Shown piece by piece: positions 397-33,280 of a DNA stretch of 37,235 nt. A program made the position numbers and the translations under genes. Where the stretch lies: NCBI GenBank assembly GCA_003151815.1, contig PLYN01000030.1:1-37235 (forward strand). The letters are read 5' to 3'. Numbering within the stretch: the stretch's first letter is position 1; every line of letters starts with the position of its first letter. Below the pieces are notes generated by a model. That model was not told where the DNA came from. It was given only the letters and a program-made list of their open reading frames with translations, and searched no databases. This stretch comes from Bacteroidota bacterium (lineage in GTDB: Bacteria > Bacteroidota > Bacteroidia > 2-12-FULL-35-15).

Positions 397-451
397 TCGG
401 ACAAAAAATGATATTAATCAGTTTTTGTCCGATTTTAAATGTTTAACTTTG
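397..451 (+). promoter_or_regulatory. Fnr-type box and -7 element for the receiver gene
   Basis: The box TGATATTAATCA (409-420, centre 414.5) lies 36.5 nt upstream of the G ending the perfect -7 element TAACTTTG (444-451). The box is embedded in a wider palindrome with the same centre: arms TCGGACAAAAA (397-407) and TTTTTGTCCGA (422-432). If transcription starts a few bases after the -7 element, the box sits near -41, the class II activator position of Crp/Fnr proteins. Confidence 0.75.
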
Positions 452-478
452 TATTAAAATAATTTAAAATTAAGCAAA

Positions 479-885
479 ATGAGCAGTGTAATTCTTATTA
501 TTGAAGATCATTCAGATATTTGCGAAAACACAGCCGAACTTTTAGAACTGGCCGGCTATAAGGTTATTACAGCCAGTAATGGGAAAGATGGCATTGAGCT
601 TGCCCATAAAAACAAGCCCGACTTAATATTGTGCGACATCATGATGCCCCAAATAGACGGATATGGTGTTTTATATGCGTTAGGCAATACGCCGGAGATC
701 TCCGGACTCCGTTTGTTTTTCTTACTGCCAAATCAGAAAATAGTGATATAAAAAAAGGGATTGATCTAGGTGCCTGTGATTATATTGTGAAGCCTTTCGA
801 AAACGAAGAATTACTTAGGGTGGTGAAGGAAAAACTTCAAAAAAATAAATCACCGGACAAAAAAATTGAAAATTTTATTTTATAG
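479..885 (+). pseudogene. Single-domain response regulator (receiver), frameshifted
   Basis: Reading from 479 gives a CheY-like receiver start with the acidic pair E9/D10 and phospho-acceptor Asp53 in CDIMMP. After PEISG (about 705) the frame is lost and the rest (TPFVFLTAKSE, then K of VKPF) continues in another frame to the stop at 883-885. Comparison with the paralogous receiver at 20112-21173 (EMIGTPFVFLTAKA) shows that restoring one base between 705 and 706 repairs it to a protein of about 135 residues with all receiver landmarks. It would have no output domain, so it would act as a phospho-relay or compete for the kinase encoded just downstream. A one-base sequencing error is an alternative to a true pseudogene. 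It has its own Fnr-type promoter. Confidence 0.8.
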
Positions 886-1000
886 ATTGAGCCAGGCAAA
901 CATCAGGTCTTAAACATTTATTTTCAGGTTTTTTATTACCCTTTCCACAGTTTTTTCTTACATTCATTTTCCATTGTGGTTTAATGTCTTCTTCCATCAT
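875..1000 (-). CDS. Small Cys-containing protein, 41 aa, unknown
   Basis: A 41-codon reading frame from the double ATG at 1000/997. It reads MMEEDIKPQWKM, then a basic stretch with RKNCGKGNKKPENKCLRPDV and a third Cys before the end. It is convergent with the receiver gene and overlaps its last 11 bases. Three Cys, many Lys and no low-complexity bias look protein-like, and it fills an otherwise empty 220-bp gap. I do not recognise a family, and no promoter element was identified. Confidence 0.5.
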   Translation of the reverse strand: MMEEDIKPQWKMNVRKNCGKGNKKPENKCLRPDVCLAQSIK

Positions 1001-1108
1001 TAAACGGATGAGAATTAAAAATGCATAATATATAACTGACAAACTCGTGAAAAAAGCTGCTCCTAAAAAAAAGATTAAAAAAAAAACGAAATCGATTACA
1101 AAAAAGAT

Positions 1109-2398
1109 ATGAGTACAACAAATTTCAAAAAAAACAATTTTTTAGAATTGCGCCAAAAGGCTGAAGAAAAAATTCAAAGAATAATTAAAAAGGTGAAAAC
1201 GGAAATTGTTCCGAAACATGAACTTGAGCATGAATTAAGTGTTCGGGAAATTGAAATGGAAATGCAATACGACGAACTGACTTTAACAAAAAACGCTTTA
1301 AAAGAATCACTAAAAAATTATTCCACTTTTTTTGATTATGCTCCCATAGGTTATTTTATTCTGGACAAAAATGGTGTGATACGTAATGTAAATCAAACTG
1401 CCTGTTCTCAGTTAGGAATTGATAAGATGCAATTAATAGCGAAAGCCCTTTCAACATTTTTAAGAACCGAACAGTGTCAGGATGATTTTTACCGACATAG
1501 AAATCTGGTGCTTGAAACCGAAATATCACAGCAAGTTGAATGTGAAATTAAAAGAAAAGATGGGTCTTTTTTTATAGCTTTGATTGAAAGTAGTTATGTG
1601 AAGGAAAATGAAAATTTCAATTTTTTCCTTTCTACAGTAAGCGATATATCCACGAGAAAAAAGCAGGAACGAAAAGTTGAAATGGCCCTGATCAAAGAAA
1701 AGGAACTAAATGCGATGAAATCTCAATTTATTACCATCGCATCCCACGAATTCCGAACACCATTAACTACCATTCTTTCATCTGCTAATCTCATTGAAAA
1801 ATACGGCAATCCGAAAGATGAAGAAAAGAGAAACAAGCATTTTCATAAAATTAAAACTTCTGTATCCAGATTAAAAGAAATTTTAATGGATTTCCTATCT
1901 GTTAGCGAAGTTGAAAAAGGCAACATAACAAATAATCCGGAAACTTTTAACCTGGTTAAATTTATAGAAGATATTATAGAAGAAACGAAATCATTTAACG
2001 GAACACATAATGTAAAATACATACACATCGGCTCCCACCAAAATGTGTTTTTGGATATGAAATTATTGAAGATCTGTTTGACAAATTTAATTATAAATGC
2101 CTATAAATACTCACCAAAAGGAGGTTTGATCGAAATCACAACAGAACAAAACACTCCTGAAAATCTTGTAATAATAATTAAAGATAACGGGATCGGGATA
2201 CCTGACGCTGATGCACTTCATATATTCGAAACATTTTTCAGGGCAAGAAATGCCGAAAATATTCAAGGAACAGGTTTAGGTTTAAATATAACAGAAAAAT
2301 TCGTTGGTATAATGGGTGGTAGCATTTCATTCATCAGCAAAGAAAATAAGGGTACCATGTTTATACTTAAATTCCTGCATTATAATAATGTTTTGTAA
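1109..2398 (+). CDS. PAS-domain sensor histidine kinase (soluble)
   Basis: A 429-residue kinase without a membrane segment, so a cytoplasmic sensor. Order: Lys/Glu-rich helical N terminus (1-70), PAS domain (about 71-188, FDYAPIGYFILDKNG to VSDISTRKKQ), HisKA dimerisation domain with phospho-acceptor His213 in ASHEFRTPL, and HATPase_c with N box around N326/N330, G1 box DNGIGIP at 359-365 and G2 box GTGLGL at 387-392. It follows the receiver gene at 479 and probably phosphorylates that protein and/or the receiver-Crp protein at 20112-21173, whose receiver is very similar. The PAS domain may sense redox state, O2 or a small ligand; no ligand residue can be named from sequence. The start is at an ATG after a very A-rich leader. 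Confidence 0.93.
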   Translation: MSTTNFKKNNFLELRQKAEEKIQRIIKKVKTEIVPKHELEHELSVREIEMEMQYDELTLTKNALKESLKNYSTFFDYAPIGYFILDKNGVIRNVNQTACSQLGIDKMQLIAKALSTFLRTEQCQDDFYRHRNLVLETEISQQVECEIKRKDGSFFIALIESSYVKENENFNFFLSTVSDISTRKKQERKVEMALIKEKELNAMKSQFITIASHEFRTPLTTILSSANLIEKYGNPKDEEKRNKHFHKIKTSVSRLKEILMDFLSVSEVEKGNITNNPETFNLVKFIEDIIEETKSFNGTHNVKYIHIGSHQNVFLDMKLLKICLTNLIINAYKYSPKGGLIEITTEQNTPENLVIIIKDNGIGIPDADALHIFETFFRARNAENIQGTGLGLNITEKFVGIMGGSISFISKENKGTMFILKFLHYNNVL

Positions 2399-2439
2399 TG
2401 ATTTTAATATTTAAAATATAAATACCAATGCTTCACGCG

Positions 2440-2496
2440 TTTCTCGACTCCGCTCGAAATGACAGCGCGTATGTCATTTCGAGCGGAGTCGAGAAA
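2440..2496. repeat. Perfect 25-bp inverted repeat (REP-type palindrome)
   Basis: Arms at 2440-2464 and 2472-2496 are perfect reverse complements containing CTCGACTCCGCTCGAAATGA, separated by a 7-base loop. It lies between convergent genes (kinase, and the small basic gene at 2545-2706). It may double as a bidirectional terminator. This core is one of the common dispersed palindromes of Bacteroidota genomes. Confidence 0.8.
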
Positions 2497-2544
2497 GCGT
2501 GCCAGCTTTTAATTATTACAAAAATATATTAAAATTTACTCCCA

Positions 2545-2706
2545 CTAAGCATGCTGTGTTTTTTTTAAGGCCATCAGCAACCGCTGTGGAATTGATTGGG
2601 ATGGATGATTATTATTGGAACGTGCTAACTTTTTTTTCAACTTTCCTTCCAAAAAAATATTTACTGAGGTATTAATTTTTTTGTGCAATTTTTTTTGTGT
2701 TTTCAT
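2545..2706 (-). CDS. Small basic protein, 53 aa, unknown
   Basis: Begins MKTQKKLHKKINTSVNIFLE and ends in a basic segment with HPSQSIPQRLLMALKKTQHA. It is strongly positively charged and possibly nucleic-acid binding, but that is only inference. It lies 52 bp downstream of the 139-aa gene on the same strand, so it may be co-transcribed from the Fnr-type promoter at 3222-3286. No family recognised. Confidence 0.5.
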   Translation of the reverse strand: MKTQKKLHKKINTSVNIFLEGKLKKKLARSNNNHPSQSIPQRLLMALKKTQHA

Positions 2707-2758
2707 TTTTTTAAAATTTAATGTTAAACATTATAAAATTATCTACAAATACTATAAC

Positions 2759-3178
2759 TCATGTTTTTTTAATCTGCTTAAGTAAACTCAAAACATTTTT
2801 ATTCAGGGATTTGAATCGCTTTTTAAAATTCATAAATTCATAATCTAATTGCCGATGCTTTTCTCTATATGTTTCTTCACCATCGTAATTGCTTTCAAGC
2901 AAATGACTTAAAAACTTTTCATGCTCTTCCACTGCATGCTGTAATTCGTCTAATTCTCCATCACTAATACTTAAAATTTCATTTTCAATATTTTCGATAG
3001 TGTCCCTAGAATTTATTGGAACAGATTTAAGTGTTTTTTCAACTAATAAGGAATAAAAAAAAGCGACTTCATCTCTCCAAAAATCAATCTCATTTAACCA
3101 CTCAAAACTTTGCTCGTGTAATGTTTCAAGTCCCACATCCAATAGTTGCATGGACTTGGGAGGTGCTAATAATTCCAT
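2759..3178 (-). CDS. Helical protein of unknown function, 139 aa
   Basis: An acidic, mostly alpha-helical protein without signal peptide or membrane segment. It starts MELLAPPKSMQLL; a long amphipathic region (about 20-60, with FWRDEVAFFYSLL) and a Glu/Leu-rich coiled-coil-like half (65-139, EHEKFLSHLLES, FMNFKKRFKSLN) follow. I do not recognise the family. What marks it is the promoter: two tandem Fnr-type boxes at the conserved distances, which place it with the stress genes of this window. Codon use matches the neighbours. Confidence 0.75.
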   Translation of the reverse strand: MELLAPPKSMQLLDVGLETLHEQSFEWLNEIDFWRDEVAFFYSLLVEKTLKSVPINSRDTIENIENEILSISDGELDELQHAVEEHEKFLSHLLESNYDGEETYREKHRQLDYEFMNFKKRFKSLNKNVLSLLKQIKKT

Positions 3179-3221
3179 ATTTAAAAGATTTTAATTTAAC
3201 AAATGATTTAAAAATTTAGCA

Positions 3222-3286
3222 CAAATATGCATTACATAATCAAAAATTGAAATGACAACGGGCAAATCATTGATTGATAAAAATCA
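3222..3286 (-). promoter_or_regulatory. Tandem Fnr-type boxes and -7 element for the 139-aa gene
   Basis: Minus-strand promoter. The -7-like CATATTTG (3229 down to 3222) has its final G 36.5 nt from the centre of TGACAACGGgCA (3253-3264, one mismatch) and 58.5 nt from the centre of the perfect box TGATAAAAATCA (3275-3286). The two box centres are 22 bp (two helical turns) apart. Confidence 0.65.
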
Positions 3287-3309
3287 TTTATTTTTTAGAG
3301 ATTGTTAAG

Positions 3310-3459
3310 GGCCTGTCTAAATTTTATTTAACTATTTTGTTATTGCCGACGCAATGCCTTCGACAAGGCTCAGGCTGACATCGCGCATGGTCATATTGAG
3401 CCTGTCGAAATATCAGCGATAGGCTTAATGTAAATAATTTTAATAAAATTTAAACAGGC
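3310..3459. repeat. MITE-like element with terminal inverted repeats and internal REP
   Basis: Left end GCCTGTCTAAATTTTATTTA and right end TAATAAAATTTAAACAGGC are near-perfect inverted repeats of about 19 bp. The interior carries the palindromic pair CTTCGACAAGGCTCAG / GAGCCTGTCGAAA. No reading frame of its own. The right end abuts the stop codon of the broken phosphatidyltransferase gene (3461). Related to the elements at 5027-5301 and 34967-35242. Confidence 0.7.
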
Positions 3460-3460
3460 T

Positions 3461-4085
3461 TTAATTTTTAATAATAGTTTCATCCAATAAATTTTGGTTT
3501 ATTGAGTTTTTAGCAATGGCTTTTTTATCTTTCAAAATCCAGTAGAGTCCTTTTACATTGCTTGTCCATTTTGGGATGATAAGAATAAGAATTATTTCCT
3601 CCACTGAAACAAGTATACTGGAAACAACGGTAACAAAAAAAATATTTTGTCAGGACCGAAAAAAATAATGTTAAAAAAAGTGTACCCTGAAATAGTGCTG
3701 TTACTTTTGCCAGATACGTATGAAAACTGGAAGGTTTTTTGTAACGGACAATAGATAATAAAAGTCGCAAAAGATATAGTGTGAAAGGGAAACTTAAAAA
3801 GCTAAGTTGTTCTCTAAAAAAAACATCTTCAAATTTTACAACCCCTATTACTCCTACAATAAATGTTATTGTATCACCAACGGAGTCTAATTAAGAGCCT
3901 AAATTGCTGGTCAGATTCAGTTGCCTGGCAAGATAACCATCAAGAATATCTGTGATAAAACTTATCAATAAAAGATATGCGAAAAAAACTTTCTCTCCTT
4001 CCAGAATAAGTAGTATTAATAAAGGCGCAACCAGGATTCTATATATAGACAACCAGTTTGGAAAACTAATTTTTTTAATGAACAT
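3461..4085 (-). pseudogene. CDP-alcohol phosphatidyltransferase-like gene, broken by a stop and a frameshift
   Basis: From 4085 it reads MFIKKISFPNWLSIYRILVA, then a membrane segment and the family motif region DILDGYLARQ (the D-G-x-x-A-R-x-x part of the CDP-alcohol phosphotransferase signature, here followed by TSNLGS). A TAA at 3893-3891 interrupts exactly before LDSVGD, the last part of the signature. The frame continues (RYKKPSSFHTYLAKVTALFQG) until a run of eight A at 3635-3642, after which the protein sense continues in another frame (FVTVVSSILVSVEEI to WTSNVKGLYWILKDK) to the stop at 3461. Two independent lesions favour a real pseudogene, though the homopolymer step could be a read error. 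Intact, it would be a membrane enzyme making phosphatidyl head groups. It follows hpf with a 6-bp gap. Confidence 0.8.
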
Positions 4086-4091
4086 AATACT

Positions 4092-4439
4092 TTACGAATA
4101 TATTTTTTCTATTTCTTCTATTATCTCTTTATTTTTCTGCGCTTGATTTCTTATTTCCTCCTTGCGTTTTTGCAATTGACGTCTCATTTCCTCAATAGCC
4201 AATGTTGCTGCCACTTCAAATTTTTCAGATTGATCTACCACAAACAGTCGGGAACCCGGAATGCTTAAATTTATTTCTACCACTTTATTTTTATTCTCAT
4301 TGTTTTTGTCAAGTCGCAATGTGATGATGCAACTTTCAATTTGCTTGAAGTTTTTCTCCAACTTGTAAACTTTTTCAAGTATTATAGTTTTAAGATGATC
4401 ATCAGCAATGAAATGAATGGATTGAATTTGTGTTTTCAT
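4092..4439 (-). CDS. hpf: Ribosome hibernation-promoting factor (HPF/YfiA, short form)
   Basis: 115 residues. The N-terminal part (MKTQIQSIHFIADDHLKTII, then KVYKLEKNFKQIESCIITLR) and the LSIPGSRLFVVDQSEKFEVA segment followed by AIEEMRRQLQKRKE match the beta-alpha-beta-beta-beta-alpha fold of HPF/protein Y. The long C-terminal dimerisation domain is absent, so this is a short type that binds the decoding centre of resting ribosomes. It heads a short minus-strand unit with the broken phosphatidyltransferase gene. A degenerate box-like palindrome TGACCTATGACA (4528-4539) lies 35.5 nt from a TTTATTTG, too weak to claim. Such factors belong to stationary-phase and anoxia responses, fitting the island. 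Confidence 0.9.
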   Translation of the reverse strand: MKTQIQSIHFIADDHLKTIILEKVYKLEKNFKQIESCIITLRLDKNNENKNKVVEINLSIPGSRLFVVDQSEKFEVAATLAIEEMRRQLQKRKEEIRNQAQKNKEIIEEIEKIYS

Positions 4440-4650
4440 GTTTTTTCGAATATTGAATTGAATGAGAATAATTTAAAATGTTTTTTAATATGTTGTGCAA
4501 ATAAATAAAATAAGGTAATCCAAAGTAATGACCTATGACATTTTTATCAATGATTTAGGCGTGAGTATCAAAATGTATATTTTAATAACAAGTTTCACCG
4601 TTCGAAAAAAAATGCCTCTTCAGGATGATTAAATTGAAATAATTGATAAA

Positions 4651-4715
4651 TGATGAATGTTATTTCTGCTTTTGATTGCAGTCATTCCAGAACAGATTAA
4701 TATCCAATACTTTTG
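4651..4715 (+). promoter_or_regulatory. Tandem Fnr-type boxes and perfect -7 element for the 33-aa peptide
   Basis: TGATGAATGTtA (4651-4662, one mismatch) and TGATTGCAGTCA (4673-4684) have centres 58.5 and 36.5 nt from the G of the perfect -7 element TACTTTTG (4708-4715). The next ATG is only 6 nt after the -7 element, so the mRNA would be leaderless or nearly so. Confidence 0.65.
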
Positions 4716-4720
4716 ACAAA

Positions 4721-4822
4721 ATGAATCAGAAAATATTTCAGGAAAGGTTTGTAAATGGGGTGTTAATTGCATTGGCAGTGATATTTTTATGTGCAACAGG
4801 CATTACATTTTTTGGTCTTTAA
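4721..4822 (+). CDS. Single-span membrane peptide, 33 aa, probably leaderless
   Basis: MNQKIFQERFVNGV is followed by one hydrophobic span (about 14-32, LIALAVIFLCATGITFFGL) that reaches the C terminus. A basic/polar N terminus and a single helix make it a candidate small membrane regulator or subunit. I do not recognise it. The case for a real gene rests on its promoter: a perfect -7 element plus two boxes in the same spacing as the larger regulon members. The region 4823-5026 after it shows no other gene. Confidence 0.55.
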   Translation: MNQKIFQERFVNGVLIALAVIFLCATGITFFGL

Positions 4823-5026
4823 ATTCGGATATGTTTTTAACCACATCAAAAATTATTTGATATTAAAAATTTGCAAAAATGTGTTCATCAAAAACTCCGC
4901 AGATCATTTATAATTTCTTGAAAAACAGAACCCATATTCTTACCAGAATGGTATCTTTTTTTTGTAGTTCAATCTTGCGTATTTCTGATCGTTAGGAAAA
5001 TGAAAAAGTTTGGAATGATATTAAGT

Positions 5027-5301
5027 AACTGTTTAAATTTTGTTTGAAAATTTTGTTATTGCCGACGCAATGCCTTCGACAAGCTCAGGCTGACATCGCG
5101 CGAGTCATATTGAGCCTGTCGAAATATCAGCAATAACCATACATGTAAATAATTTGAATAAATTTTATTCAAATTATTCACAGGTATGCAATCACACGGA
5201 TATTTTGCTTTGCTCAATATGAAAAAAATCTGACACACGCTTTGTCATCCTGAACGCTTGAAGAATCTCATAACAAATAAAATTATAAAATTTAAACAGT
5301 T
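5027..5301. repeat. Non-autonomous element with perfect 15-bp terminal inverted repeats
   Basis: AACTGTTTAAATTTT (5027-5041) and its exact reverse complement AAAATTTAAACAGTT (5287-5301) bound 275 bp without a gene. Inside are the REP pair CTTCGACAAGCTCAGGCTGA / GAGCCTGTCGAAA shared with 3310-3459, a secondary AT-rich inverted repeat (about 5144-5178) and a fragment TGTCATCCTGAACGCTTGAA. Its right end is 9 bp from the start of the lipoprotein gene at 5310. Confidence 0.75.
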
Positions 5302-5309
5302 TCATAAAA

Positions 5310-5738: not shown

Positions 5739-5806
5739 TTTTATAGAATCCATAGTGAACAGGAACAACATAAAAAGCCTAAAAATTAAACTTTTCAATC
5801 GCATTT

Positions 5807-5882: not shown

Positions 5883-5925
5883 TGAGTTATATCATATATT
5901 ATTTCTCTTGATGTTTTTAGTTTTG
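5883..5925 (+). promoter_or_regulatory. Fnr-type box and -7 element for ftsH
   Basis: TGAgTTATATCA (5883-5894, one mismatch) has its centre 36.5 nt from the last G of the perfect -7 element TAGTTTTG (5918-5925). The leader to the ATG at 5969 is about 40 nt. Confidence 0.6.
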
Positions 5926-5968
5926 TAGGATAAATTTTAGAAAATCATTTAATGTTAAATTCAAATTA

Positions 5969-7903
5969 ATGGATCAATTTCCAAATCAAGATAATTTGCA
6001 ACAAAAACCTGAAAGAGGTTTTAGGTTGGGATGGATATATATTATAATAATCATCTCCTTGATACTTTTAGCCATACCCGGATCATATTTTACTGCTAAA
6101 GAAATCAACTGGCAGGAATTTGAAAAATACATTTTAAACCGTCATGCGGTTGAAAAAATTGATATTGTTAATAATGAAATAGCAGAAATATATATTAAAA
6201 AAGAATTTGCAAATGATGTTTTTTTTAAGGATGTTCTTCAACCTAAAATTGGAAAAGCATTAAATCCGGGTCCTCATTATATTTTTAATATAGGCTCCAT
6301 CGAAACGTTTGAAAGGAAAATGGAAGAAGCAGAAAAGAGTTTTTCTGAAAATGAAAAAATAGACGTTACCTATGTTAAAAGAACAAATATATTTTATGAA
6401 ATCCTTCCTTTGATAATTCCGATTATTTTGGTAGTACTGATGTTCAGGCTTTTTGCACAGAATGTCGGTGCCGGAAGAATAGGGGGGTCATCTGTTTTTA
6501 ATTTTGGAAGATCAACAGCTATGTTATATGAAAAAGAGAATAAAAGTACTATCACATTTAATGATGTAGCCGGATTGGAAGAAGCCAAACAAGAAATAAA
6601 AGAAATTGTTGATTTTTTAATGGACCCGAAAACATATACTAAGCTGGGGGCAAAAATTCCTAAAGGGGTTATTATTGTTGGCCCTCCGGGAACAGGGAAA
6701 ACGCTTTTAGCCAAGGCGGTAGCAGGTGAGGCACAAGTTCCATTTTTTTCTTTATCAGGTTCTGAATTTGTGGAAATGTTTGTGGGAGTGGGAGCCTCTC
6801 GCGTTCGTGATTTATTTAAAAACGCAAAAGAAAAAGCGCCTTCTATTATATTTATTGATGAAATAGACGCTGTAGGAAGGTCGAGAGGGAAAAATGCTTT
6901 TTTTACCGGTGCGAATGATGAAAGAGAAAGTACTCTCAATCAACTGCTGGCGGAAATGGATGGTTTCGGTACCAATAGTGGTGTTATTGTTTTGGCAGCA
7001 ACCAATCGCGCAGATATGCTGGATCCTGCTTTATTACGACCAGGTAGATTTGACAGACATATTTATTTAGAGTTACCTAATTTTAATGATCGTAGGGAAA
7101 TTTTTAAAGTTCACCTAAAGCCACTTACAGTTGAAAATACTGTTGACGCTGATTTTTTGGCTGCACAAACTCCCGGTTTTTCGGGAGCGGACATTGCTAA
7201 TATTTGCAATGAAGCTGCGTTGATTGCGGCAAGAAGAAAAAAAGAAAAAGTAGAAAAGCAGGATTTTATTGATGCAATGGAAAGGATTGTTGCGGGTGCA
7301 GAAAAGAAAAGTAAAATAATTTCTCCTGATGAAAAAAAAATAATTGCTTATCATGAGGCGGGGCACGCAGTGGTGAGTTGGTTATTAAAAGATGTTGATC
7401 CATTGGTAAAAGTTTCTATTGTTCCCAGAGGCAAATCATTGGGCGCTGCATGGTATCTCCCTGAAGAGCATCAGTTGAGAAATACTGCACAGTTTACAGA
7501 TATGCTTTGTGCTGCTTTAGGTGGCAGAGCCTCGGAGGAAATAATTTTTGGAGATGTGACCTCCGGAGCATTAGATGATCTTGAAAAAGTCACGAAACAG
7601 GCATATACCATGGTCGCATTTTATGGTTTTAATAAAAAAATCGGTAACATCAGTTATTACAATTCTAACGGCTTAAATGAAACAGGATTTCAAAAACCAT
7701 ATAGCGAAGAAACAGGTAGAATAATTGATGATGAGGTTCGTATTTTGGTTGAAAAAACGTATCAACAGGCAAAAGATTTATTATTAAAAAATAAAGATGC
7801 ATTGAAAACGCTTGCAGAATTATTGTTGCAAAAAGAAGTTGTTCTTAAAGAAGATCTTGAAAAAATATTAGGAAAACGTTCGGAAGTAGCCATTACAAAA
7901 TGA
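5969..7903 (+). CDS. ftsH: ATP-dependent zinc metalloprotease FtsH
   Basis: 644 residues in the usual order: membrane span 1 (about 22-41), periplasmic domain (42-142), span 2 (143-161), AAA+ domain with Walker A GPPGTGKT (238-245), Walker B IIFIDEID (293-300), second region of homology [17 protein letters not shown] (346-362), then the M41 protease with zinc motif HEAGH (462-466). It degrades damaged membrane proteins and short-lived regulators. It is monocistronic between the terminator at 5807-5839 and a convergent nitroreductase. Its promoter has the Fnr-type box, which suggests a stress-specific copy rather than the housekeeping one; many Bacteroidota have more than one FtsH, but copy number cannot be told from this window. 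Confidence 0.96.
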
Positions 7904-8689: not shown

Positions 8690-8887
8690 TTAATAATTAT
8701 TTTTTCGTGAAGAATCTTTGCGAATGAGTGAATCTGTATTTAAATTTCTTTTTGAAAAATCAATCTGCTCTTTGATGGTAGGTTCGCAATATTTTCCGGA
8801 ATCGCCTATAAATAGTAGAATAACTAAAAAAACAATTATCGCAATCAGTCCTACTATTATTACTATATATATATTATTATTTTTCAT
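8690..8887 (-). CDS. Small membrane-anchored protein, 65 aa, unknown
   Basis: MKNNN then one strongly hydrophobic span (about 6-28, IYIVIIVGLIAIIVFLVILL), followed by a charged tail with EQIDFSKRN and DSLIRKDSSRK. One Cys (in GKYCEP) follows the span. No family recognised. It is the first gene of a two-gene unit with the nitroreductase. The ATG is 13 nt after the -7 element, so the leader is very short. Confidence 0.6.
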   Translation of the reverse strand: MKNNNIYIVIIVGLIAIIVFLVILLFIGDSGKYCEPTIKEQIDFSKRNLNTDSLIRKDSSRKNNY

Positions 8888-8900
8888 GAAAAGGTTTCAG

Positions 8901-8965
8901 CAAAGATGAACTTCAAAAATTAATAATATACTGATGTTTGTCGTAAAATAGTTTGATTGATATCA
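8901..8965 (-). promoter_or_regulatory. Tandem Fnr-type boxes and -7 element for the 65-aa/nitroreductase unit
   Basis: On the minus strand CATCTTTG (8908 down to 8901) has its G 36.5 nt from the centre of TGATGTTTGTCg (8932-8943, one mismatch) and 58.5 nt from the centre of the perfect box TGATTGATATCA (8954-8965). This is the same two-box layout and the same imperfect CATnTTTG as at 3222-3286. Confidence 0.65.
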
Positions 8966-12366: not shown

Positions 12367-13794
12367 TTACAATAAAGGTTTTCCTAAGTAAAAATTAACC
12401 ATTTTGGTTTTCAATACATAATCGTATTTTGCCTGGATCAAGGACATGGATACCTTGTTATAATTATTTTTTTCAATAAGAAAGCTGGTTGCATCGAGTG
12501 CACCAACAGTGTATTTTTTTTCCATATCAGTGTATGTTCGCTTTTCCAATAGCATTTGCTCTTCAGTTGCATTCAACTTTTTTCCTGCTGAAACCTGATT
12601 CGTGAAAGCTGTTTCAATACTTTTTCTCAAGTCGTTTTTTGTTTGCTGTTCGTTCAACTTAGCATTCATGACATTTATTTTTGCTATGGCAACATTACTT
12701 TTCACTTGTAAATTATTGAATATCGGTACAGATAAACTGAAGCCGACAACCTTACTGAGATTATTGTTCAATTGATCTGAGACAGATTCATTTTGTCTAT
12801 TAATGATTGTAGAAGGAATATTTCCGATAACAGGCTGAGTAGGATCGTTGTTAAGATATCCTACTGTTGTCTGCTGATAGATTGTACTTTGAGTGATATT
12901 ACTTCTCAAACTGGAATATCCTGTTTTAAGTGTGCCGGTCATCGATAATTTTGGAATCCATCCGCTTTCCGCCATTTTCAGACTGAACAGAGCTGCACTG
13001 GTTTTCAATGAAGCACTTTTTATCTGTGGCAAAAAACTTTCGGAAATCTTATCTATCTCTTCCGTGGAAACGGGTATTTCCGGAAACAGATCTTTTAATT
13101 CTCGTTTCTCAATATCAAAATCATTGGTCGCAGGTATATTCATTAGTTGAAGCAATGTTATTTTATCCAGTTGCAATTGATTATCTGCATTCACTTTGGC
13201 GAGTTTATCAGTGGCTAATTGCGATTGTATCTGAAGAAGATTTAACTCCGCTACCTTCCCGAACTCAACGAATTTTCCAGTCTGTTCTTCCTGCGTACTC
13301 GTGGCTTCCACCTGTGCTTGCGCAACATTAACGGCTTCGTGATCCATGAGCACCTGCATATAGGCAGCCAGAATGTTGAGTGTAATATCATTCTTTATTT
13401 TTTCAACATCCAGCATTGCTGCATCGTAAATAAGTTTATTTTGTCTGGCAGTATTGAGTAAGAGATATCCGTTAAAAAGTGTAACCGAACTATTTAAGGA
13501 GAGATTATTTATTGAAATATTTTGGGTAGTATATTGGTATGTATAAGGATCCAATGAATATCCTGAACTGAAATTATGTGCATCACTCAGATTAAGATTA
13601 GGAAGTGAGGCGGCTTTTGACTGGGCAAGATTTATTTTATTTGTTTCGCTGGTTAGTTGTCCTTGATTGAGGGTTACATTTTTATTAAATGCGGTATCAA
13701 TACAAGCCTTTAAAGACCAAACTTTAGTTTGAGCATGTAATATAGTAATAGAACACAATACTGATATACTCAGAAAAAAAAACTTCATGTTCAT
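12367..13794 (-). CDS. tolC: Outer membrane efflux protein, TolC family
   Basis: 475 residues with a signal peptide (MNMKFFFLSISVLCSITILHAQ) and the two TolC repeats: WSLKACIDTAFNKNVTLNQG near the start, the long helical part around 120-225, and a second repeat in the C-terminal half (ETAFTNQVSAGKKLNATEEQ, then the conserved YTVGALDATSFLIEKNNYN). It forms the trimeric outer membrane duct. First gene of the operon tolC-macA-ATPase-permease. Two exact Fnr-type boxes lie upstream, which would put the complete efflux pump under the same control as the dormancy-type genes. Confidence 0.93.
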   Translation of the reverse strand: MNMKFFFLSISVLCSITILHAQTKVWSLKACIDTAFNKNVTLNQGQLTSETNKINLAQSKAASLPNLNLSDAHNFSSGYSLDPYTYQYTTQNISINNLSLNSSVTLFNGYLLLNTARQNKLIYDAAMLDVEKIKNDITLNILAAYMQVLMDHEAVNVAQAQVEATSTQEEQTGKFVEFGKVAELNLLQIQSQLATDKLAKVNADNQLQLDKITLLQLMNIPATNDFDIEKRELKDLFPEIPVSTEEIDKISESFLPQIKSASLKTSAALFSLKMAESGWIPKLSMTGTLKTGYSSLRSNITQSTIYQQTTVGYLNNDPTQPVIGNIPSTIINRQNESVSDQLNNNLSKVVGFSLSVPIFNNLQVKSNVAIAKINVMNAKLNEQQTKNDLRKSIETAFTNQVSAGKKLNATEEQMLLEKRTYTDMEKKYTVGALDATSFLIEKNNYNKVSMSLIQAKYDYVLKTKMVNFYLGKPLL

Positions 13795-13823: not shown

Positions 13824-13888
13824 CGAAGGTTGGGATATTTTAAAAATAGGAATATGACTATCATCAGTTCAAATACTGATAATAATCA
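13824..13888 (-). promoter_or_regulatory. Two exact Fnr-type boxes upstream of the efflux operon
   Basis: TGACTATCATCA (13855-13866) and TGATAATAATCA (13877-13888) both fit TGAYnnnnRTCA, 22 bp apart. At the predicted -7 position (13831 down to 13824, minus strand) the sequence is AACCTTCG, a poor match to TAnnTTTG, but its final G is exactly 36.5 and 58.5 nt from the box centres. Boxes are strong; the core promoter is weak. Confidence 0.6.
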
Positions 13889-16623: not shown

Positions 16624-16688
16624 CAAATCTAACATCAATGCCTTTTAAGGGTAATGACCGGAGTCATAATAGGTGAAGATTCTTATCA
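16624..16688 (-). promoter_or_regulatory. Fnr-type boxes and perfect -7 element for the 138-aa gene
   Basis: Minus-strand -7 element TAGATTTG (16631 down to 16624) with its G 36.5 nt from the centre of TGACCGGAGTCA (16655-16666, exact) and 58.5 nt from aGATTCTTATCA (16677-16688, one mismatch). Confidence 0.7.
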
Positions 16689-16803: not shown

Positions 16804-16846
16804 TGACTATGATCATTTCAATTATTGAGACATCATTATTACTTTG
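16804..16846 (+). promoter_or_regulatory. Fnr-type box and -7 element for the erythromycin-esterase-like gene
   Basis: TGACTATGATCA (16804-16815, exact to TGAYnnnnRTCA) is centred 36.5 nt before the G of TTACTTTG (16839-16846). A half-site ATCA at 16790-16793 is at the distal position. The ATG follows 17 nt after the -7 element. Confidence 0.65.
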
Positions 16847-19281: not shown

Positions 19282-19324
19282 TGATAAATATCACTGCATT
19301 GTTTTATGTTTTTCATTTCATTTG
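19282..19324 (+). promoter_or_regulatory. Fnr-type box and -7-like element for the CBS gene
   Basis: TGATAAATATCA (19282-19293, exact) has its centre 36.5 nt from the G of TTCATTTG (19317-19324), one mismatch to TAnnTTTG. The leader to the ATG is about 45 nt. Confidence 0.65.
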
Positions 19325-20111: not shown

Positions 20112-21173
20112 TTAATTCTTCAAGTCGGTTAATTTTTTCAAATTCAGGATTCTGATAATTCCATTGTTTGTTTCTATTAATCCTTCTTCTTTGAAATCGG
20201 TAAGGTTTCGGCTTACTGATTCCGGTGATATTCCTGCTATTGCGGATATGTTTTCGCGGTGAGCAGGAAATGTAGATTCTTCAGCATCTTCAATTTGGTA
20301 TTTTTTGAAAATAAAGATCAATGCCTCTGCTACTCGTTTTCTGGCAGAATCGTATGCCAGCTTTATTAATTTTTCTTCTGCCTGCACAAGGTCATTGGTA
20401 ATGAATTTGATGAATTTTAAAGACACATCATTATTGGAATACAACAATTGAAAAAAGTCTTCCTGAGGAACTAAAGCTATTTCAGCGTTTTCTATCGCAA
20501 CGGCAGATTCTTTATATTTGCTTTCATCCAGCAAGGCCAAATGCCCGAAAAAATCTCCTTCTCCGTGAATCTCAGTAATATATTCTTTACCCCATTCATT
20601 CGTTTTATATGTTTTTACTTTCCCCGACACAATGAAATAAAGAAACTTGGTTAAATCCCCTTCCATGAAAACAAAATCTTTTTTTCTGATTTTTTTTATG
20701 GTTCTGTTTTCAGATAAGATATTGATGTTTTGAAGTGTTTTAGCGGTGTCAATAAAACTATTTAAACCCTCCAGATTATTTTTATATTTTGTTTTTAACA
20801 ATTGATTTTTTCTCAATCTTGAACTCACTATTTTTAATAGATCCTCCCCTCCGAAAGGTTTGGTAAGATAGTCGTCTGCGCCAAGATCCATTCCTTTTCT
20901 GAAATCAGCTTTATCTGCTTTTGCTGTTAAAAACACAAAAGGGGTTCCTATCATTTCCGGAAGATTTTCAATGGCTTGTAAAACGCCATAACCATCCAAT
21001 TCCGGCATCATGATATCGCAAAGTATCAGATCGGGTTTATCCTTTTTGGCGCGGTCTAGTCCGTCCAATCCATTATTGGCTGTAAAAACTTTGTATCCGG
21101 CTAATTCCAATAGTTCGGCTGTATTCTCACGTATGTCAACGCTATCTTCAATTATTAAAACTGTATCACTCAT
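20112..21173 (-). CDS. Receiver-Crp/Fnr hybrid transcription regulator
   Basis: 353 residues in three parts. A CheY-like receiver (1-120): acidic E9/D10, phospho-acceptor Asp53 in CDIMMP, Thr83, Lys105. A cyclic-nucleotide-binding-like domain (about 155-250, FVFMEGDLTKFLYFIVSGKV; GEGDFFGHLALLDES). A Crp-type winged helix (about 275-345) with recognition helix SPESVSRNLTDFKEEG: E318, S321 and R322 match the E-x-x-S-R of E. coli Fnr that reads TTGAT half-sites. It has no N-terminal Cys cluster, so it senses through phosphorylation, not through an Fnr iron-sulfur cluster. The kinase at 1109-2398 is a likely donor. Two exact Fnr-type boxes precede it, suggesting autoregulation. It is the prime candidate for the regulon described in the findings. 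Confidence 0.94.
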   Translation of the reverse strand: MSDTVLIIEDSVDIRENTAELLELAGYKVFTANNGLDGLDRAKKDKPDLILCDIMMPELDGYGVLQAIENLPEMIGTPFVFLTAKADKADFRKGMDLGADDYLTKPFGGEDLLKIVSSRLRKNQLLKTKYKNNLEGLNSFIDTAKTLQNINILSENRTIKKIRKKDFVFMEGDLTKFLYFIVSGKVKTYKTNEWGKEYITEIHGEGDFFGHLALLDESKYKESAVAIENAEIALVPQEDFFQLLYSNNDVSLKFIKFITNDLVQAEEKLIKLAYDSARKRVAEALIFIFKKYQIEDAEESTFPAHRENISAIAGISPESVSRNLTDFKEEGLIETNNGIIRILNLKKLTDLKN

Positions 21174-21245: not shown

Positions 21246-21319
21246 CAAAAGTAGATAGATAGATTTAATATAATATGATTAATATCACTTATCATTCGAT
21301 TAATGGGTGATATTAATCA
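21246..21319 (-). promoter_or_regulatory. Promoter of the hybrid regulator with two exact Fnr-type boxes
   Basis: Minus-strand -7 element TACTTTTG (21253 down to 21246, perfect). The box TGATTAATATCA (21276-21287) is centred 35.5 nt away, one base closer than at other promoters, and a second, TGATATTAATCA (21308-21319), lies 32 bp further upstream. The second box is identical to the one before the receiver gene at 479. Confidence 0.65.
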
Positions 21320-27972: not shown

Positions 27973-28233
27973 TTACTGCTGTTAGCTGCTTTTTTATTTG
28001 TCGGTTGGTAGTCTTAATGGTATTAAGTTTTTTTGTCCTAATTTGTCCGATATAAATAACAGTAAAGTGTATTCTTCGATAGAGGAAGGTTTAACATTCG
28101 TGTCTCTTGCAATTGGTTCATGAACGCCGAATCCTGTAATTCCGTTAATAACTTATAGAAAACCGAAAGGAATTGCCCAGACTTATTTTTTATTTTTAGC
28201 GTAATTATTTTATAATTCATATTACTATTTATA

Positions 28234-28241
28234 TACTTTTG
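28234..28241 (+). promoter_or_regulatory. -7 element of the GMC oxidoreductase gene
   Basis: TACTTTTG, a perfect TAnnTTTG, 53 bp before the ATG. No Fnr-type box at the regulon distance. Confidence 0.55.
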
Positions 28242-28294
28242 TCGTGTTTTTATAAATAAAAGCATCAACAAAAATCTTTTCAAAAATCAATAGT

Positions 28295-29935: not shown

Positions 29936-29976
29936 AATTATTGTACTTTAGTAAAAAACATTTCTAATAAAAATTT

Positions 29977-30136
29977 GAACCACATAGGTTCATAGGAATA
30001 AAAAAAAACAGAGAAAAATAAATTTTTACACATAGACTTTCTGTGTATCCCCGATTTATTGGGGTACTATGTAAAACTTTTAATTAAAACGAAACTATAT
30101 TTCGGAGTTTATCCCGACAAAGGAAGGATGGTTAAA
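29977..30136. repeat. ACCACATAG repeat element, copy 2
   Basis: Starts GAACCACATAGGTTCATAGG and shares GAGAAAAATAAATTTTTACA and TTTATTGGGGTACTATGTAA with copy 1 at 21566-21706. The right end (GGATGGTTAAATAA) is degenerate and carries an extra AT-rich insertion. It lies between the GMC and SDR genes, likely within one mRNA. Confidence 0.7.
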
Positions 30137-30175
30137 TAAATTACAACCAGAAATATTGTACTAAAAAAATAACAA

Positions 30176-30970
30176 ATGAGTTCGATCAAAAATAAAGTTG
30201 TTTGGGTTACCGGCGCTACATCAGGCATTGGAGAAGCTATTGTGGATGAATTGGCATCGCATGGAGCTAAAATCATTATTTCGGCCCGCCGTGAGGATGA
30301 ATTGAAACGTGTTGCTGAAAAATATAAAAGTGCTGATGTTTTTATTCTTCCTCTTGATCTTGGCGATCAAAGTAATTTTGAAGAAAAGAAAAATATTGTA
30401 CTGCAAAAATTTGGACGTATTGATATATTAGTAAACAACGGAGGAATCAGTCAACGTTCATTGGTTAAAGATACTTCTGTAGATGTTGATCGCAGAATAA
30501 TGGAAATAAATTATTTCGGAACTATTGCACTCACTAAAGTTGTATTACCTCAATTTTTAAAACAAGGCAACGGTAAATTTGTTGTAACCAGCAGCACTGT
30601 TGGTAAAATTGGTACTCCCTACCGAAGCGGTTATTCAGCAAGTAAACATGCCTTACATGGTTTTTTTGATTCGTTGCGTGCTGAGTTACACGACAGTGGA
30701 ATTAGTGTACTGTTAGTATGTCCGGGATTTATCCAAACAAATATTTCTATGAATGCATTAACCGGCAGCGGTGAAAAATTGGGTACCATGGATAAAGCTA
30801 CCGCAGCAGGTTTAACGCCTAAGCAGTGTGCAAAACAAATCATTGATGGGATCATCACCAACAAGCAGGAAATTGTTGTTGGTGGAATGAAAGAAAAATT
30901 TGCAATCATAACCAAACGTTTTTTTCCATCATTCTTTTCTGTATTAATCAGAAAAATGGCTGTGAAGTAG
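30176..30970 (+). CDS. Short-chain dehydrogenase/reductase
   Basis: 264 residues of a classical SDR: cofactor motif TGATSGIG (12-19), NNGG near residue 87-90, catalytic Ser in VTSSTVGKIG, Tyr153 and Lys157 in YSASK, then CPGFIQTNIS. It resembles DHRS7-type membrane-associated SDRs, with a basic-hydrophobic C terminus (RFFPSFFSVLIRKMAVK). NADP use is likely but not proven by sequence (Arg after strand 2, SARRED). Substrate unknown. Confidence 0.93.
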   Translation: MSSIKNKVVWVTGATSGIGEAIVDELASHGAKIIISARREDELKRVAEKYKSADVFILPLDLGDQSNFEEKKNIVLQKFGRIDILVNNGGISQRSLVKDTSVDVDRRIMEINYFGTIALTKVVLPQFLKQGNGKFVVTSSTVGKIGTPYRSGYSASKHALHGFFDSLRAELHDSGISVLLVCPGFIQTNISMNALTGSGEKLGTMDKATAAGLTPKQCAKQIIDGIITNKQEIVVGGMKEKFAIITKRFFPSFFSVLIRKMAVK

Positions 30971-30979
30971 GTTTTATTT

Positions 30980-31017
30980 TTGCTTTCAAAATGTATCTTT
31001 GATTTATTGATAGACAA
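30980..31017 (+). repeat. Short direct repeat flanking the MazEF-type module, left copy
   Basis: TTGCTTTCAA, TATCTTTGA, TTATTGATA and ACA blocks occur in the same order and spacing at 31740-31777, about 32 of 38 bases identical. The left copy also has a perfect TATCTTTG but no plus-strand gene follows it, so it looks like a displaced promoter. Confidence 0.65.
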
Positions 31018-31056
31018 CAGATAAGATAAAAAGCAACAATCAGCTTCATTTATTAT

Positions 31057-31389
31057 TTAATAATCCATTATTTCATTCAGAGTTTGCTTTATTTTATTGA
31101 TCTCTTCAGTAGTAATTTCCCCGATTTTTTTTGTTAACCGTTCTTTGCTGATGGAACGGATATGAAATGTAAGGATTTCAGAAGTTTGTTTTAGCTTGTT
31201 TTTAGTGCTTGCATGAAGTACCACATTACCTTTGTAATTTTTTATTTTTGTAGTAAGCGGACAACAAATAACAATGTTTAGATGTGCGTTTAGTAAATTA
31301 CCACTGATAACAACTACGGGTCGAATGCCGGACTGTTCTTGTCCTTTTATCGGATTAAGGTTGGCATACCAAATATCTCCTTGTTTCAT
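31057..31389 (-). CDS. mazF: MazF/PemK-family toxin (endoribonuclease)
   Basis: 110 residues: MKQGDIWYANLNPIKGQEQS, then GIRPVVVISGNLLN, the central VICCPLTTKIKNYKGNVVL and the C-terminal IRSISKERLTKKIGEITTEE. All the MazF landmarks are present (G-D-I-W, G-x-R-P-V-V-V-I, P-L-T, R-S-I-S-K-x-R-L). It cuts mRNA at short motifs. It overlaps the antitoxin gene by 4 bp. Confidence 0.93.
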   Translation of the reverse strand: MKQGDIWYANLNPIKGQEQSGIRPVVVISGNLLNAHLNIVICCPLTTKIKNYKGNVVLHASTKNKLKQTSEILTFHIRSISKERLTKKIGEITTEEINKIKQTLNEIMDY

Positions 31390-31628
31390 ATTTCATCCGA
31401 TTTTAGTTGAGTAAGGTAATCACTCATGCCTTCCTCGGCAATTTTTAAAATATCAGTATCGGCAGCCATTTTTTTATAGGAGCGGATATATTCAGCTTTA
31501 TTTAGTTGAGTTAAATAAATGGACAAAGCTTTTTCAATTAGCTTGTTTTTAGGCATATTCAGCTCTTTTGCTTTTTTATTAAGCAATTCAAGCAAGGAGT
31601 TTGGGAGGGTACTGGTAAATGTTGTCAT
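31386..31628 (-). CDS. Ribbon-helix-helix antitoxin of the MazF pair
   Basis: 80 residues: MTTFTSTLPNSLLELLNKKA, then KELNMPKNKLIEKALSIYLT forming a ribbon-helix-helix fold, and a C-terminal tail (ADTDILKIAEEGMSDYLTQL) that would occupy the toxin groove. First gene of the pair. It binds its own promoter region as a dimer, as known for such antitoxins. Confidence 0.88.
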   Translation of the reverse strand: MTTFTSTLPNSLLELLNKKAKELNMPKNKLIEKALSIYLTQLNKAEYIRSYKKMAADTDILKIAEEGMSDYLTQLKSDEI

Positions 31629-31739
31629 GTGTTTTTATATTTATAAAATACAAATATAATATATATTTACAATATTAACATGTTATTTGTATTTTTTAGG
31701 CAGTCCGATTTTTAGGAGTGGTTATAGTACACGTTGTGA

Positions 31740-31777
31740 TTTGCTTTCAATTTCTATCTTTGACTTATTGATATACA
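31740..31777 (+). repeat. Short direct repeat flanking the MazEF-type module, right copy
   Basis: Partner of 30980-31017. This copy holds the perfect -7 element TATCTTTG (31755-31762) that should serve the hydrolase gene at 31822; no Fnr-type box stands at the regulon distance. Confidence 0.65.
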
Positions 31778-31821
31778 CTGTAGGTGTATTAAATTATCAT
31801 AAATTGTAATATAAATTTCGC

Positions 31822-32664
31822 ATGCAAACAATACTCAATAAAATCATAAAAGGGAGTCGTGATAAAGACATCAGTGTAGATGTGTTTTTTAAATCGAGCA
31901 AACAACCCAAGTCCATTGTTATTTTTTCGCATGGCTTTAAAGGCTTTAAAGATTGGGGTTGTTGGGATATAGTGGCGAAACATTTTGCTGAAGCAGGTTT
32001 TGTATTTGTGAAATTTAATTTCTCCTATAATGGAACTACCATTGATCAGCCTTCCGATTTCGCTGATCTGGAAGCGTTCGGAAATAATAATTATACCACT
32101 GAATTGAATGACCTTGGATTGGTTATCGATTGGGTATTAAGTACCGAACTTTTAAATGATGAAATTGATAAACAGCAATTGAATTTGTTGGGACATAGCA
32201 GAGGTGGAGGGATCACCATTTTAAAAGCAGGAGAAGATAACAGGGTAAAAAAAATTACCACTTGGGCAGCCGTTGCAGATCTTATTCAAAGAATGAAAGA
32301 TTATAATTTAAACGAATGGAAAGAAAAAGGTGTGCTGTATAGTATGAACGCACGGACTAAACAAGAGATGCCTTTGTATTATCAATTATATGAAGATACA
32401 ATTACAAATGCTCCCCGCCTTGATATTCAAAAAGTAACTGCTCAACTTTCTATTCCATTTTTAATTATTCATGGTACCAATGATGAGGCAGTATCTGTGG
32501 AGGATGCAAAATTACTTCATTCAACATGCAAACATTCTGAGTTGTTTTTAATAGAAGGTGCAGGACATACATTTGGTGCCAAACATCCATTTGATGGTAA
32601 GGAACTTCCCATATATGCCGATATAGTAGTAAATAAAACGATCGAATTTTTCAAGACAATTTAG
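31822..32664 (+). CDS. Alpha/beta hydrolase
   Basis: 280 residues: FSHGFKGFKDWGCWD forms the oxyanion loop, LLGHSRGGG carries the nucleophile Ser in G-H-S-R-G, and IHGTNDEAVSVED (Asp) and GAGHTFGAKHP (His) complete the triad. No signal peptide. A serine hydrolase of the dienelactone-hydrolase-like or peptidase S9-like group. Single gene with its own promoter at 31755-31762. Confidence 0.9.
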   Translation: MQTILNKIIKGSRDKDISVDVFFKSSKQPKSIVIFSHGFKGFKDWGCWDIVAKHFAEAGFVFVKFNFSYNGTTIDQPSDFADLEAFGNNNYTTELNDLGLVIDWVLSTELLNDEIDKQQLNLLGHSRGGGITILKAGEDNRVKKITTWAAVADLIQRMKDYNLNEWKEKGVLYSMNARTKQEMPLYYQLYEDTITNAPRLDIQKVTAQLSIPFLIIHGTNDEAVSVEDAKLLHSTCKHSELFLIEGAGHTFGAKHPFDGKELPIYADIVVNKTIEFFKTI

Positions 32665-32685
32665 AAATGTAAATTCGGCGCAATC

Positions 32686-32812
32686 AATAAAAAAAGCAGG
32701 TACTTACGCACCTGCTTTACCTAACAAAAACAAAACAAAAAACAACCGATTTTTCATCGACCTTGGATTTGACAGTTTAACCATTTTTTAAAATGGGTAT
32801 ATCTGCTTCAAT
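32686..32812 (-). ncRNA. Candidate small RNA with its own promoter and terminator
   Basis: On the minus strand a perfect -7 element TATGTTTG (32820 down to 32813) is followed by about 120 nt without a reading frame. It contains CCATTTT/AAAATGG-type and CGAT/ATCG stems and ends in the hairpin AAAGCAGGT (32710-32718 side) / ACCTGCTTT with a tail of T (32691-32696). A run rich in GTTTTGTTTTTG precedes the terminator. No known RNA family could be assigned. It may instead be the 3' end of the 68-aa gene's transcript. Confidence 0.4.
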
Positions 32813-32901
32813 CAAACATATAGGTTATCCTTACATGTAGCAGGTTACGCTGCCTTTGAACTATAAAATAAAATATCATTGCTGATACAAAATCTTCTAG
32901 T

Positions 32902-33108
32902 CTATGTTTTTGTTTTAATCATTAATAACAAAAAAAAGTCGTAACTGTTTTCTTCGGAAATTGGAATGCATGCATCATCAACCTCTGACCAATTGGGATT
33001 CTCACCCAAAAATAGTATCAACTTTCGTTGCCTTTGTATCTGCCAGTTTGTAAAGTCTTTTACAACTCCATTATCTGACCTAATAAATGTTAAAATGATT
33101 TTTTTCAT
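32902..33108 (-). CDS. Unknown small protein, 68 aa
   Basis: MKKIILTFIRSDNGVVKDFT, then NWQIQRQRKLILFLGENPNW and an acidic end with DDACIPISEENSYDFFLLLM. Mixed alpha/beta, no signal. No family recognised. Support comes from the promoter: a perfect TATATTTG 11 bp before the ATG and an Fnr-type box at the exact regulon distance, divergent from the methyltransferase promoter. The leader would be only a few bases. Confidence 0.6.
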   Translation of the reverse strand: MKKIILTFIRSDNGVVKDFTNWQIQRQRKLILFLGENPNWSEVDDACIPISEENSYDFFLLLMIKTKT

Positions 33109-33118
33109 TAAGATAAAA

Positions 33119-33183
33119 CAAATATATACCTGTCGTAAAGAATTTTCAATGACTATTATTATAAGATATTGTGACTATTGATA
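33119..33183 (-). promoter_or_regulatory. Fnr-type box(es) and -7 element for the 68-aa gene
   Basis: Minus-strand TATATTTG (33126 down to 33119). TGACTATTATtA (33150-33161, one mismatch) is centred 36.5 nt from its G. At the distal position (33172-33183) TGACTATTGATA has one perfect half-site and two mismatches in the other. Confidence 0.55.
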
Positions 33184-33237
33184 CTTTAGAATGATTAAGG
33201 AATGAAATTTCAGAATGATCAAATTCTTTTCTTGATT

Positions 33238-33280
33238 TGTCCTAAATCATTATAATCACAATTCGATTGGATTTACTTTG
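33238..33280 (+). promoter_or_regulatory. Fnr-type box and -7 element for the methyltransferase run
   Basis: TGtCCTAAATCA (33238-33249, one mismatch) is centred 36.5 nt before the G of TTACTTTG (33273-33280), the same -7 variant as at 16839. A half-site TGAT (33216-33219) is at the distal position. Confidence 0.55.

Follow-up and report, generated by a model that had tools for sequence, protein, structure and literature searches.

A fixed Fnr-type box spacing and a candidate low-oxygen regulon around a receiver-Crp fusion gene in Bacteroidia

The window studied here is a 37,235-nt stretch of DNA (contig PLYN01000030.1 of GenBank assembly GCA_003151815.1) from a Bacteroidota bacterium of the class Bacteroidia, and it contains the gene of a protein in which a two-component receiver is fused to a Crp-type activator (the receiver-Crp fusion). 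Many genes of this window are preceded by an Fnr-type box, TGAYnnnnRTCA, that lies at one fixed distance from a promoter core of the form TAnnTTTG. The same layout occurs elsewhere in the genome and in relatives, many promoters carry a second box 22 bp further upstream, and the sites cluster at the fusion gene, which in relatives often has a kinase gene next to it. We consider it probable that these genes form a regulon island for low oxygen or persistence, controlled by a two-component system with its receiver fused to a FixK/Fnr-like activator.

Box spacing in the window, the genome and relatives

The distance was counted as 23 nt between box and core (N23), which equals 27 nt between box and TTTG (N27) and places the box centre 36.5 nt from the final G of the core. 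A first-pass annotation of the window had claimed this distance for eleven promoters, and measurement gave box-N23-core at all of them. As it had also stated, the proximal box is exact before the genes at 479, 4721, 13794, 16605, 16863 and 19376; the other five boxes have 1 mismatch. Cores are exact at 479, 4721, 5969, 16605 and 33108, carry 1 mismatch at 3178, 8887, 16863, 19376 and 33337, and carry 2 mismatches at 13794, a promoter already described as having a poor -7 element. Two further claims held when measured: the box of the receiver-Crp gene (21173, minus strand) is centred at 35.5 nt, and at six control TAnnTTTG promoters said to have no box (21512, 23848, 24729, 28234, 31755 and 35515) the slot shows 3-6 mismatches.

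Thirty-two gene starts were picked by hand from the list of open reading frames (ORFs), three of them (4721, 8887 and 33108) because the first-pass annotation had named them. With up to 1 mismatch in the box and up to 1 in the core, 11 of the 32 starts had the layout at N23 (13794 being excluded and 4439 on the minus strand included), whereas 54 other spacings gave 0 starts (30 spacings), 1 start (21), 2 starts (2) or 4 starts (1, N45, which is the tandem position), with a mean of 0.54; the Poisson probability is ~2e-11 when the spacings are treated as independent. After removal of the three named starts, N23 retained 8 of 29, and the other spacings gave 0 (35), 1 (16) or 2 (3). Relaxing the core to ≤2 mismatches weakened the contrast, with 12 starts at N23 against at most 7 at any other spacing. 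The number of boxes at any position of the window is ordinary (71 found, 63 expected), so that the signal resides in the spacing. Exact TAnnTTTG occurs 62 times on both strands of the window, and a box (≤1 mismatch) stands at N23 before 5 of these. A feature absent from the first-pass annotation is a second box (≤1 mismatch) exactly 22 nt upstream of the proximal one at 5 of the 11 measured promoters (3178, 4721, 8887, 13794 and 16605); at 33108 and 33337 the box at 22 nt has 2 mismatches. The earlier observation of a fixed box spacing is confirmed and extended by these results.

The whole assembly of this organism (2.53 Mb, 61 contigs, 76.6% complete), of which the window is contig C59 and represents 1.5%, was scanned for TGAYN4RTCA-N27-TTTG. 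Nineteen exact sites were found, against 1 for a reversed-pattern control. Over 31 spacings (12 to 42) there were 133 matches, which leaves roughly 4 for each other spacing, a figure that is perhaps somewhat low since, in at least one case, a forward site with two possible gaps was counted at the shorter one alone. Five of the 19 sites lie inside the window. The possibility that the spacing is as common in coding DNA as before genes was not borne out: 18 of the 19 sites are outside long ORFs, and the remaining one falls within a long ORF that runs on the opposite strand. Beyond the window, the sites precede genes for Hsp20, BON and SprB-repeat proteins, among others. On contig C4:670-743 two sites overlap head to head (L001, L002) with no convincing ORF downstream, possibly at a small RNA.

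As a sample of relatives we used the best 80 of 583 receiver-Crp loci (1.30 Mb in total); near-duplicates occur among them (e.g. L067/L068, L089/L095), and counts over the 80 loci are therefore not independent events. Exact boxes preceded TTTG 95 times at N27 and ~7 times at most other spacings. Further peaks were seen at N49 (65) and N50 (26), the tandem position, and at N8 (24), a by-product of the tandem because TTTG also arises where the end of the spacer meets the next box. When the window and the 80 loci were taken together with total mismatches ≤1, 181 sites fell at N23, 24 at N24 and ~9 elsewhere, so that the comparison with related genomes proposed by the first-pass annotation shows the same spacing conserved. 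Promoters followed by an ORF numbered 153, and in 61 of them a second box (≤1 mismatch) stands upstream of the first at exactly 22 bp; of the other second-box offsets from 12 to 55, 23 bp gave 6 and none of the rest more than 4. With ≤2 mismatches and an offset of 22 or 23 bp, the second box is present in 82 of the 153. The profile of these 153 promoters contained no -33 TTG; T's flank the box solely on the side facing the promoter, and no conservation is seen at the outer T/A of the classical anaerobox. A regulon with a shared layout is thus well supported, and the position of the core would place the proximal box near -41, as at class II promoters.

That AT-rich intergenic DNA merely gives boxes at N23 by chance is vanishingly improbable. 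The ordinary number of boxes in the window and the 7 genes reached by another spacing under the relaxed core would agree with such an origin, but the peaks in the relatives and in the own assembly, together with the single match of the reversed pattern, speak against it.

The fusion protein and the distribution of sites

The fusion belongs to the Crp/Fnr superfamily (PF00027, 8e-22; PF13545, 8.2e-14). Its identity with Fnr, the Fe-S oxygen sensor, was rejected, since it has a single Cys and no N-terminal cysteine cluster. Identity with cAMP-responsive Crp was rejected as well, the residues aligned with the cAMP-pocket positions, which we take to be E72, R82 and S83 of Crp, being H, K and E. 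Because the Crp half lacks both the cAMP-pocket residues and the Fe-S cysteines, the receiver is left as the input. The protein is not a FixK, as a receiver is attached to it (the inner box is alike, the outer base free), nor a FixJ, which is a receiver with a NarL-type helix-turn-helix (HTH) output, as its own output is cNMP_binding plus HTH_Crp_2. Fnr-type DNA recognition is characterised by an E..SR helix. Among the seven cNMP-domain proteins of the genome this helix occurs only in the fusion, the others having E..VR, D..TR, E..IR, E..IR, V..SR and D..SR; three of these six have an Fnr-like cysteine cluster, with E..IR or D..TR helices. A SPES.SRN-type helix is found in 7 of the 9 nearest relatives (L020-L023, L025-L027), with L024, L028 and L021 as close variants. 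The family is very large: of 7,998 candidates scored, 7,681 reached E≤1e-60. Among 120 proteins listed, the source name is missing or is one such as 'response regulator', 'CRP-like cAMP-binding protein/CheY-like' and, in three cases, 'polysaccharide utilization system transcription regulator'. In Flavobacteriales and Saprospiraceae, Crp/Fnr homologues have been given a MalR-like carbon role (PMC8510549); the word 'receiver' is absent from that text, and this role is neither confirmed nor refuted here.

In 19 other fusion genomes, 21 of 90 sites lie ≤20 kb from the fusion gene against 0.89 expected, the 90 being the sites of these genomes among the matches listed, out of 257 in all 43 fusion genomes of the class. 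In 16 of the 80 loci the gene directly behind a box promoter is that of the fusion. In 13 of the 80 a small CDO-like protein heads a run of kinase and fusion genes behind such a promoter (L034, L036, L046, L047, L049, L057, L065, L067, L068, L070, L071, L088 and L092), and the three head proteins scanned all match cysteine dioxygenase (CDO_I).

Across the phylum, exact box-N23-TAnnTTTG was found in 124 of 296 genomes. Within the same class 66 of 73 genomes have the proximal layout, 39 of the 43 with a detected fusion and 27 of the 30 without; outside the class at least one site is present in 58 of 223 genomes, mostly one or two (this group has no control total). Since fusion-free genomes share it, the proximal layout is an Fnr-type grammar common to the class and not specific to the fusion, and the proximal spacing was rejected as a fusion signature. 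The suggestion of the first-pass annotation that one Crp/Fnr-type activator controls these genes, possibly genome-wide, is therefore upheld in part: the class II-type layout is genome-wide, conserved and found near the fusion gene, but a single activator is not shown, and the 27 fusion-free genomes and the six further cNMP-domain proteins count against it. One genome outside the class without a detected fusion (G271) has 28 exact sites and an unfused Crp/Fnr protein (L107) with an E..SR-type helix. At G064:C11:986315-986410 and G292:C1:1378362-1378457 a tandem pair lies between divergent promoters, so that the proximal box of one promoter is the distal box of the other.

In a rival explanation, an unfused activator of the ordinary Fnr type (here one of L102-L104, or L101) would be the main user of the boxes, and the receiver-Crp gene merely a target or co-regulator. 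Besides the fusion-free genomes with the same spacing, the unfused Fnr-like proteins in the nine such genomes inspected and the three own proteins with an Fnr-like cysteine cluster agree with this explanation. However, the sites cluster at the fusion gene, the autoregulatory layout recurs, and the helices of the own Fe-S-type proteins read E..IR or D..TR; we regard this explanation as unlikely. A shared regulon, in which the same boxes serve both the fusion and unfused Fnr proteins, the fusion being dominant in the local island and the others elsewhere, is a serious possibility, though rather less than an even one, and is compatible with an island run by the fusion. The evidence for the fusion and that for unfused Fnr both fit it, and FixK and FnrN share anaeroboxes in Rhizobium leguminosarum, according to PMC7888657; the present results do not separate two sets of sites.

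Kinases, target genes and the proposed circuit

A kinase gene ends ≤250 nt upstream of the fusion gene in 44 of the 72 loci (of the 80) examined for this. L077 was recognised as a kinase and L068 was excluded, so that 43 kinases were analysed. At the FixL heme columns, His is present in 35 of the 43 and His together with Arg in 24 (L084 gave no alignment and was counted as lacking His). A strict FixL motif search recovered 12 of 44 sequences, the window kinase being among the 44, and the adjacent kinase of a Mucilaginibacter locus (L093) matches FixL structures at 4.5e-33. Judged by these alignments, a part of the adjacent kinases in relatives would be FixL-type, with the heme His and Arg columns in the PAS domain and a kinase core. 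The window's own fusion gene is solitary, but an exact box precedes a run (479-2398) that encodes a fusion-like receiver and a kinase. The receiver gene is divided over two reading frames in this assembly (479-1108), owing either to a real break or to a sequencing error. Against a profile of the DHp domain of the partner kinases, the window kinase (1109-2398) scored 120.8 bits and L161, located elsewhere in the genome, 135.0, the next score being 49.5 among the 11 of 13 own-genome kinases compared (L167 and L168 were left out). The window kinase is thus the likely partner of the fusion.

Target products were assigned by Pfam, for most target clusters from one representative each. Near fusion genes they include CBS, Usp, P-type ATPase, BON, OsmC and YtxH proteins, a radical-SAM protein (L091) and pyruvate phosphate dikinase (L090); other themes are patatin, hydroxyacid dehydrogenase and SprB-repeat proteins. 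In one relative (L053) cbb3 oxidase CcoN/O and a CcoI-like ATPase are found behind box promoters. Targets of ~1230 aa were considered as a possible enzyme, which was rejected as L022, the one scanned, has SprB repeats; SprB-repeat proteins stand behind box promoters at L022:4061-7753 (a relative) and at L007 (own genome). In its gene content, with FtsH, HPF, Hsp20 and CBS proteins, the target set looks like one for low-oxygen persistence.

We propose that a histidine kinase with a PAS domain, which resembles FixL in many relatives, would phosphorylate the receiver of the fusion. The active dimer would bind TGAYnnnnRTCA centred at about -41.5, with the box in the place of the would-be -33 element; a further dimer would occupy many promoters exactly 22 bp (about two helical turns) upstream, near -63.5. 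Both dimers may assist RNA polymerase at the TAnnTTTG promoter, by which low-oxygen persistence genes would be switched on; targets, here or in relatives, would be the fusion itself, the kinase, the single-domain receiver, the hibernation factor, FtsH, CBS, Usp, Hsp20 and BON proteins and cbb3 oxidase. We infer binding and activation by the fusion, and oxygen as the signal in this organism, from the observed arrangement. That the Bacteroidia have an oxygen-response circuit of their own, and a widespread one, with a FixL-like kinase, a one-protein FixJ-receiver/FixK fusion, paired boxes near -41.5 and -63.5, a persistence island under its control and in some genomes a FixT-like feedback receiver, is put forward tentatively, at slightly below an even chance.

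Several observations weigh against a fusion-run circuit. Proximal sites are nearly as dense without the fusion, 257 in the 43 fusion genomes (6.0 each) versus 150 in the 30 without a detected fusion (5.0), with 8 and 4 matches for the reversed pattern. Distal sites number 64 and 20 in the same groups (reversed control 7 each), and tandems are readable in the fusion-free genomes G017, G111 and G273; the distal box is accordingly weakened as a fusion signature, though it is denser in fusion genomes. The absences themselves are soft, as the fusion search scored ≤7 candidates per genome. In the own genome the strict distal-box pattern matches once, as does its reversed control, and 71 of the 153 promoters lack a second box even at ≤2 mismatches and 22 or 23 bp. 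The promoter of the window fusion is one base off the standard spacing and has its second exact box 32 nt upstream of the nearer one instead of 22, and the helices of more distant fusion relatives are mostly GTATES-type, not E..SR. The partner-type DHp is not confined to the adjacent kinases, as others in the sampled loci have it too. A FixL-type PAS was rejected for the window kinase (0.6 bits to FixL PAS, Asp at the His column). The PAS of L161 is FixL-like and keeps the His, with Met occupying the Arg column. The sensor input is therefore less certain here than in relatives. Finally, the cbb3 gene of L053 starts 186 nt past the core.

Features of the window and comparison with known systems

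Table 1. Boxes and genes of the candidate regulon in the window (tandem, two boxes 22 bp apart).
Feature	Position	Strand	Remarks
Receiver-Crp fusion, 353 aa, proposed activator	20112..21173	-	Pfam Response_reg 5-116, cNMP_binding 160-244, HTH_Crp_2 280-350; helix ISPESVSRNL; one Cys
Exact box nearer the receiver-Crp gene	21276..21287	-	centre 35.5 nt from final G of core
Second exact box of receiver-Crp gene	21308..21319	-	32 nt further upstream
Proximal box of gene 479	409..420	+	exact; core TAACTTTG at 444-451
Stand-alone receiver, frame broken	479..751	+	54 of first 76 residues identical to receiver of fusion
PAS histidine kinase, likely partner	1109..2398	+	one of two near partner-type DHp profile, 11 kinases compared
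Tandem boxes of gene 3178(-)	3253..3286	-	
139-aa protein, gene 3178(-)	2759..3178	-	no Pfam match
Proximal box of gene 4439(-)	4529..4540	-	1 mismatch; core TTTATTTG; not in first-pass annotation
HPF/YfiA-type ribosome hibernation factor	4092..4439	-	Pfam Ribosomal_S30AE above cut-off; NCBIfam yfiA below its cut-off
Tandem boxes of gene 4721 (33-aa ORF)	4651..4684	+	
Proximal box of ftsH	5883..5894	+	1 mismatch; core exact
FtsH protease	5969..7903	+	Pfam Peptidase_M41, AAA, FtsH_ext
Tandem boxes of gene 8887(-) (65-aa ORF)	8932..8965	-	
Tandem exact boxes ahead of OEP/HlyD/ABC/MacB-type run (13794)	13855..13888	-	weak core AACCTTCG; products by Pfam
Tandem boxes of gene 16605(-) (138 aa)	16655..16688	-	no Pfam match
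Proximal box of gene 16863 (erythromycin-esterase family, PF05139)	16804..16815	+	exact
Proximal box of CBS-domain gene 19376 (Pfam CBS)	19282..19293	+	exact
Proximal box of gene 33108(-) (68-aa ORF)	33150..33161	-	1 mismatch; core exact
Proximal box of gene 33337 (methyltransferase)	33238..33249	+	1 mismatch

The methyltransferase gene is followed by a PEBP-family gene and then by a weak TerB match below the Pfam cut-off. At 4708-4721, 33108-33126 and 8887-8908 the distance from core to start is only 5 to 13 nt, which would mean leaderless or near-leaderless transcripts; relatives likewise show short distances of 12-15 nt.

In class II activation by Fnr or Crp of Escherichia coli the activator is centred near -41.5. 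The box near -41.5 is alike here, whereas the fusion differs from these proteins in lacking Fe-S cysteines, in its changed cAMP-pocket residues and in the added receiver. Our literature search, which did not reach most subscription journals, found no account of this receiver-Crp fusion or of its promoter layout. The fixed, searchable promoter grammar makes candidate targets readable from genome sequence, and low-oxygen sensing in these Bacteroidota becomes a testable question.

The rhizobial FixL-FixJ-FixK system, as described in PMC7888657, resembles the proposed circuit in its FixL-like kinase, its receiver, its FixK/Fnr-like activator and its box of the TGAT-N4-ATCA kind, and cbb3 oxidase is among the targets in at least one relative (L053). 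It differs in that the outer T/A of TTGAT-N4-ATCAA is free here, the core is of the Bacteroidota type and the boxes form a 22-bp tandem. Since receiver and Crp-type activator are combined in one protein, no separate step of fixK transcription would be needed, unlike in the rhizobial cascade. The dual anaerobox at fnrN described in the same source, where the distal site activates and the proximal one represses, is another arrangement than that found here. FixT of Caulobacter (PMC7078487) is likewise a single-domain receiver within the regulon of a FixL system; the window receiver differs in resembling the receiver of the fusion itself and in having its frame broken in the assembly. The nearest described parallel found is the lxa locus of Burkholderia cenocepacia, for which PMC6127331 reports clustered low-oxygen genes, universal stress proteins, alpha-crystallin and nitro-compound reduction; it belongs to another phylum, and the likeness is one of gene content, regulators left aside.

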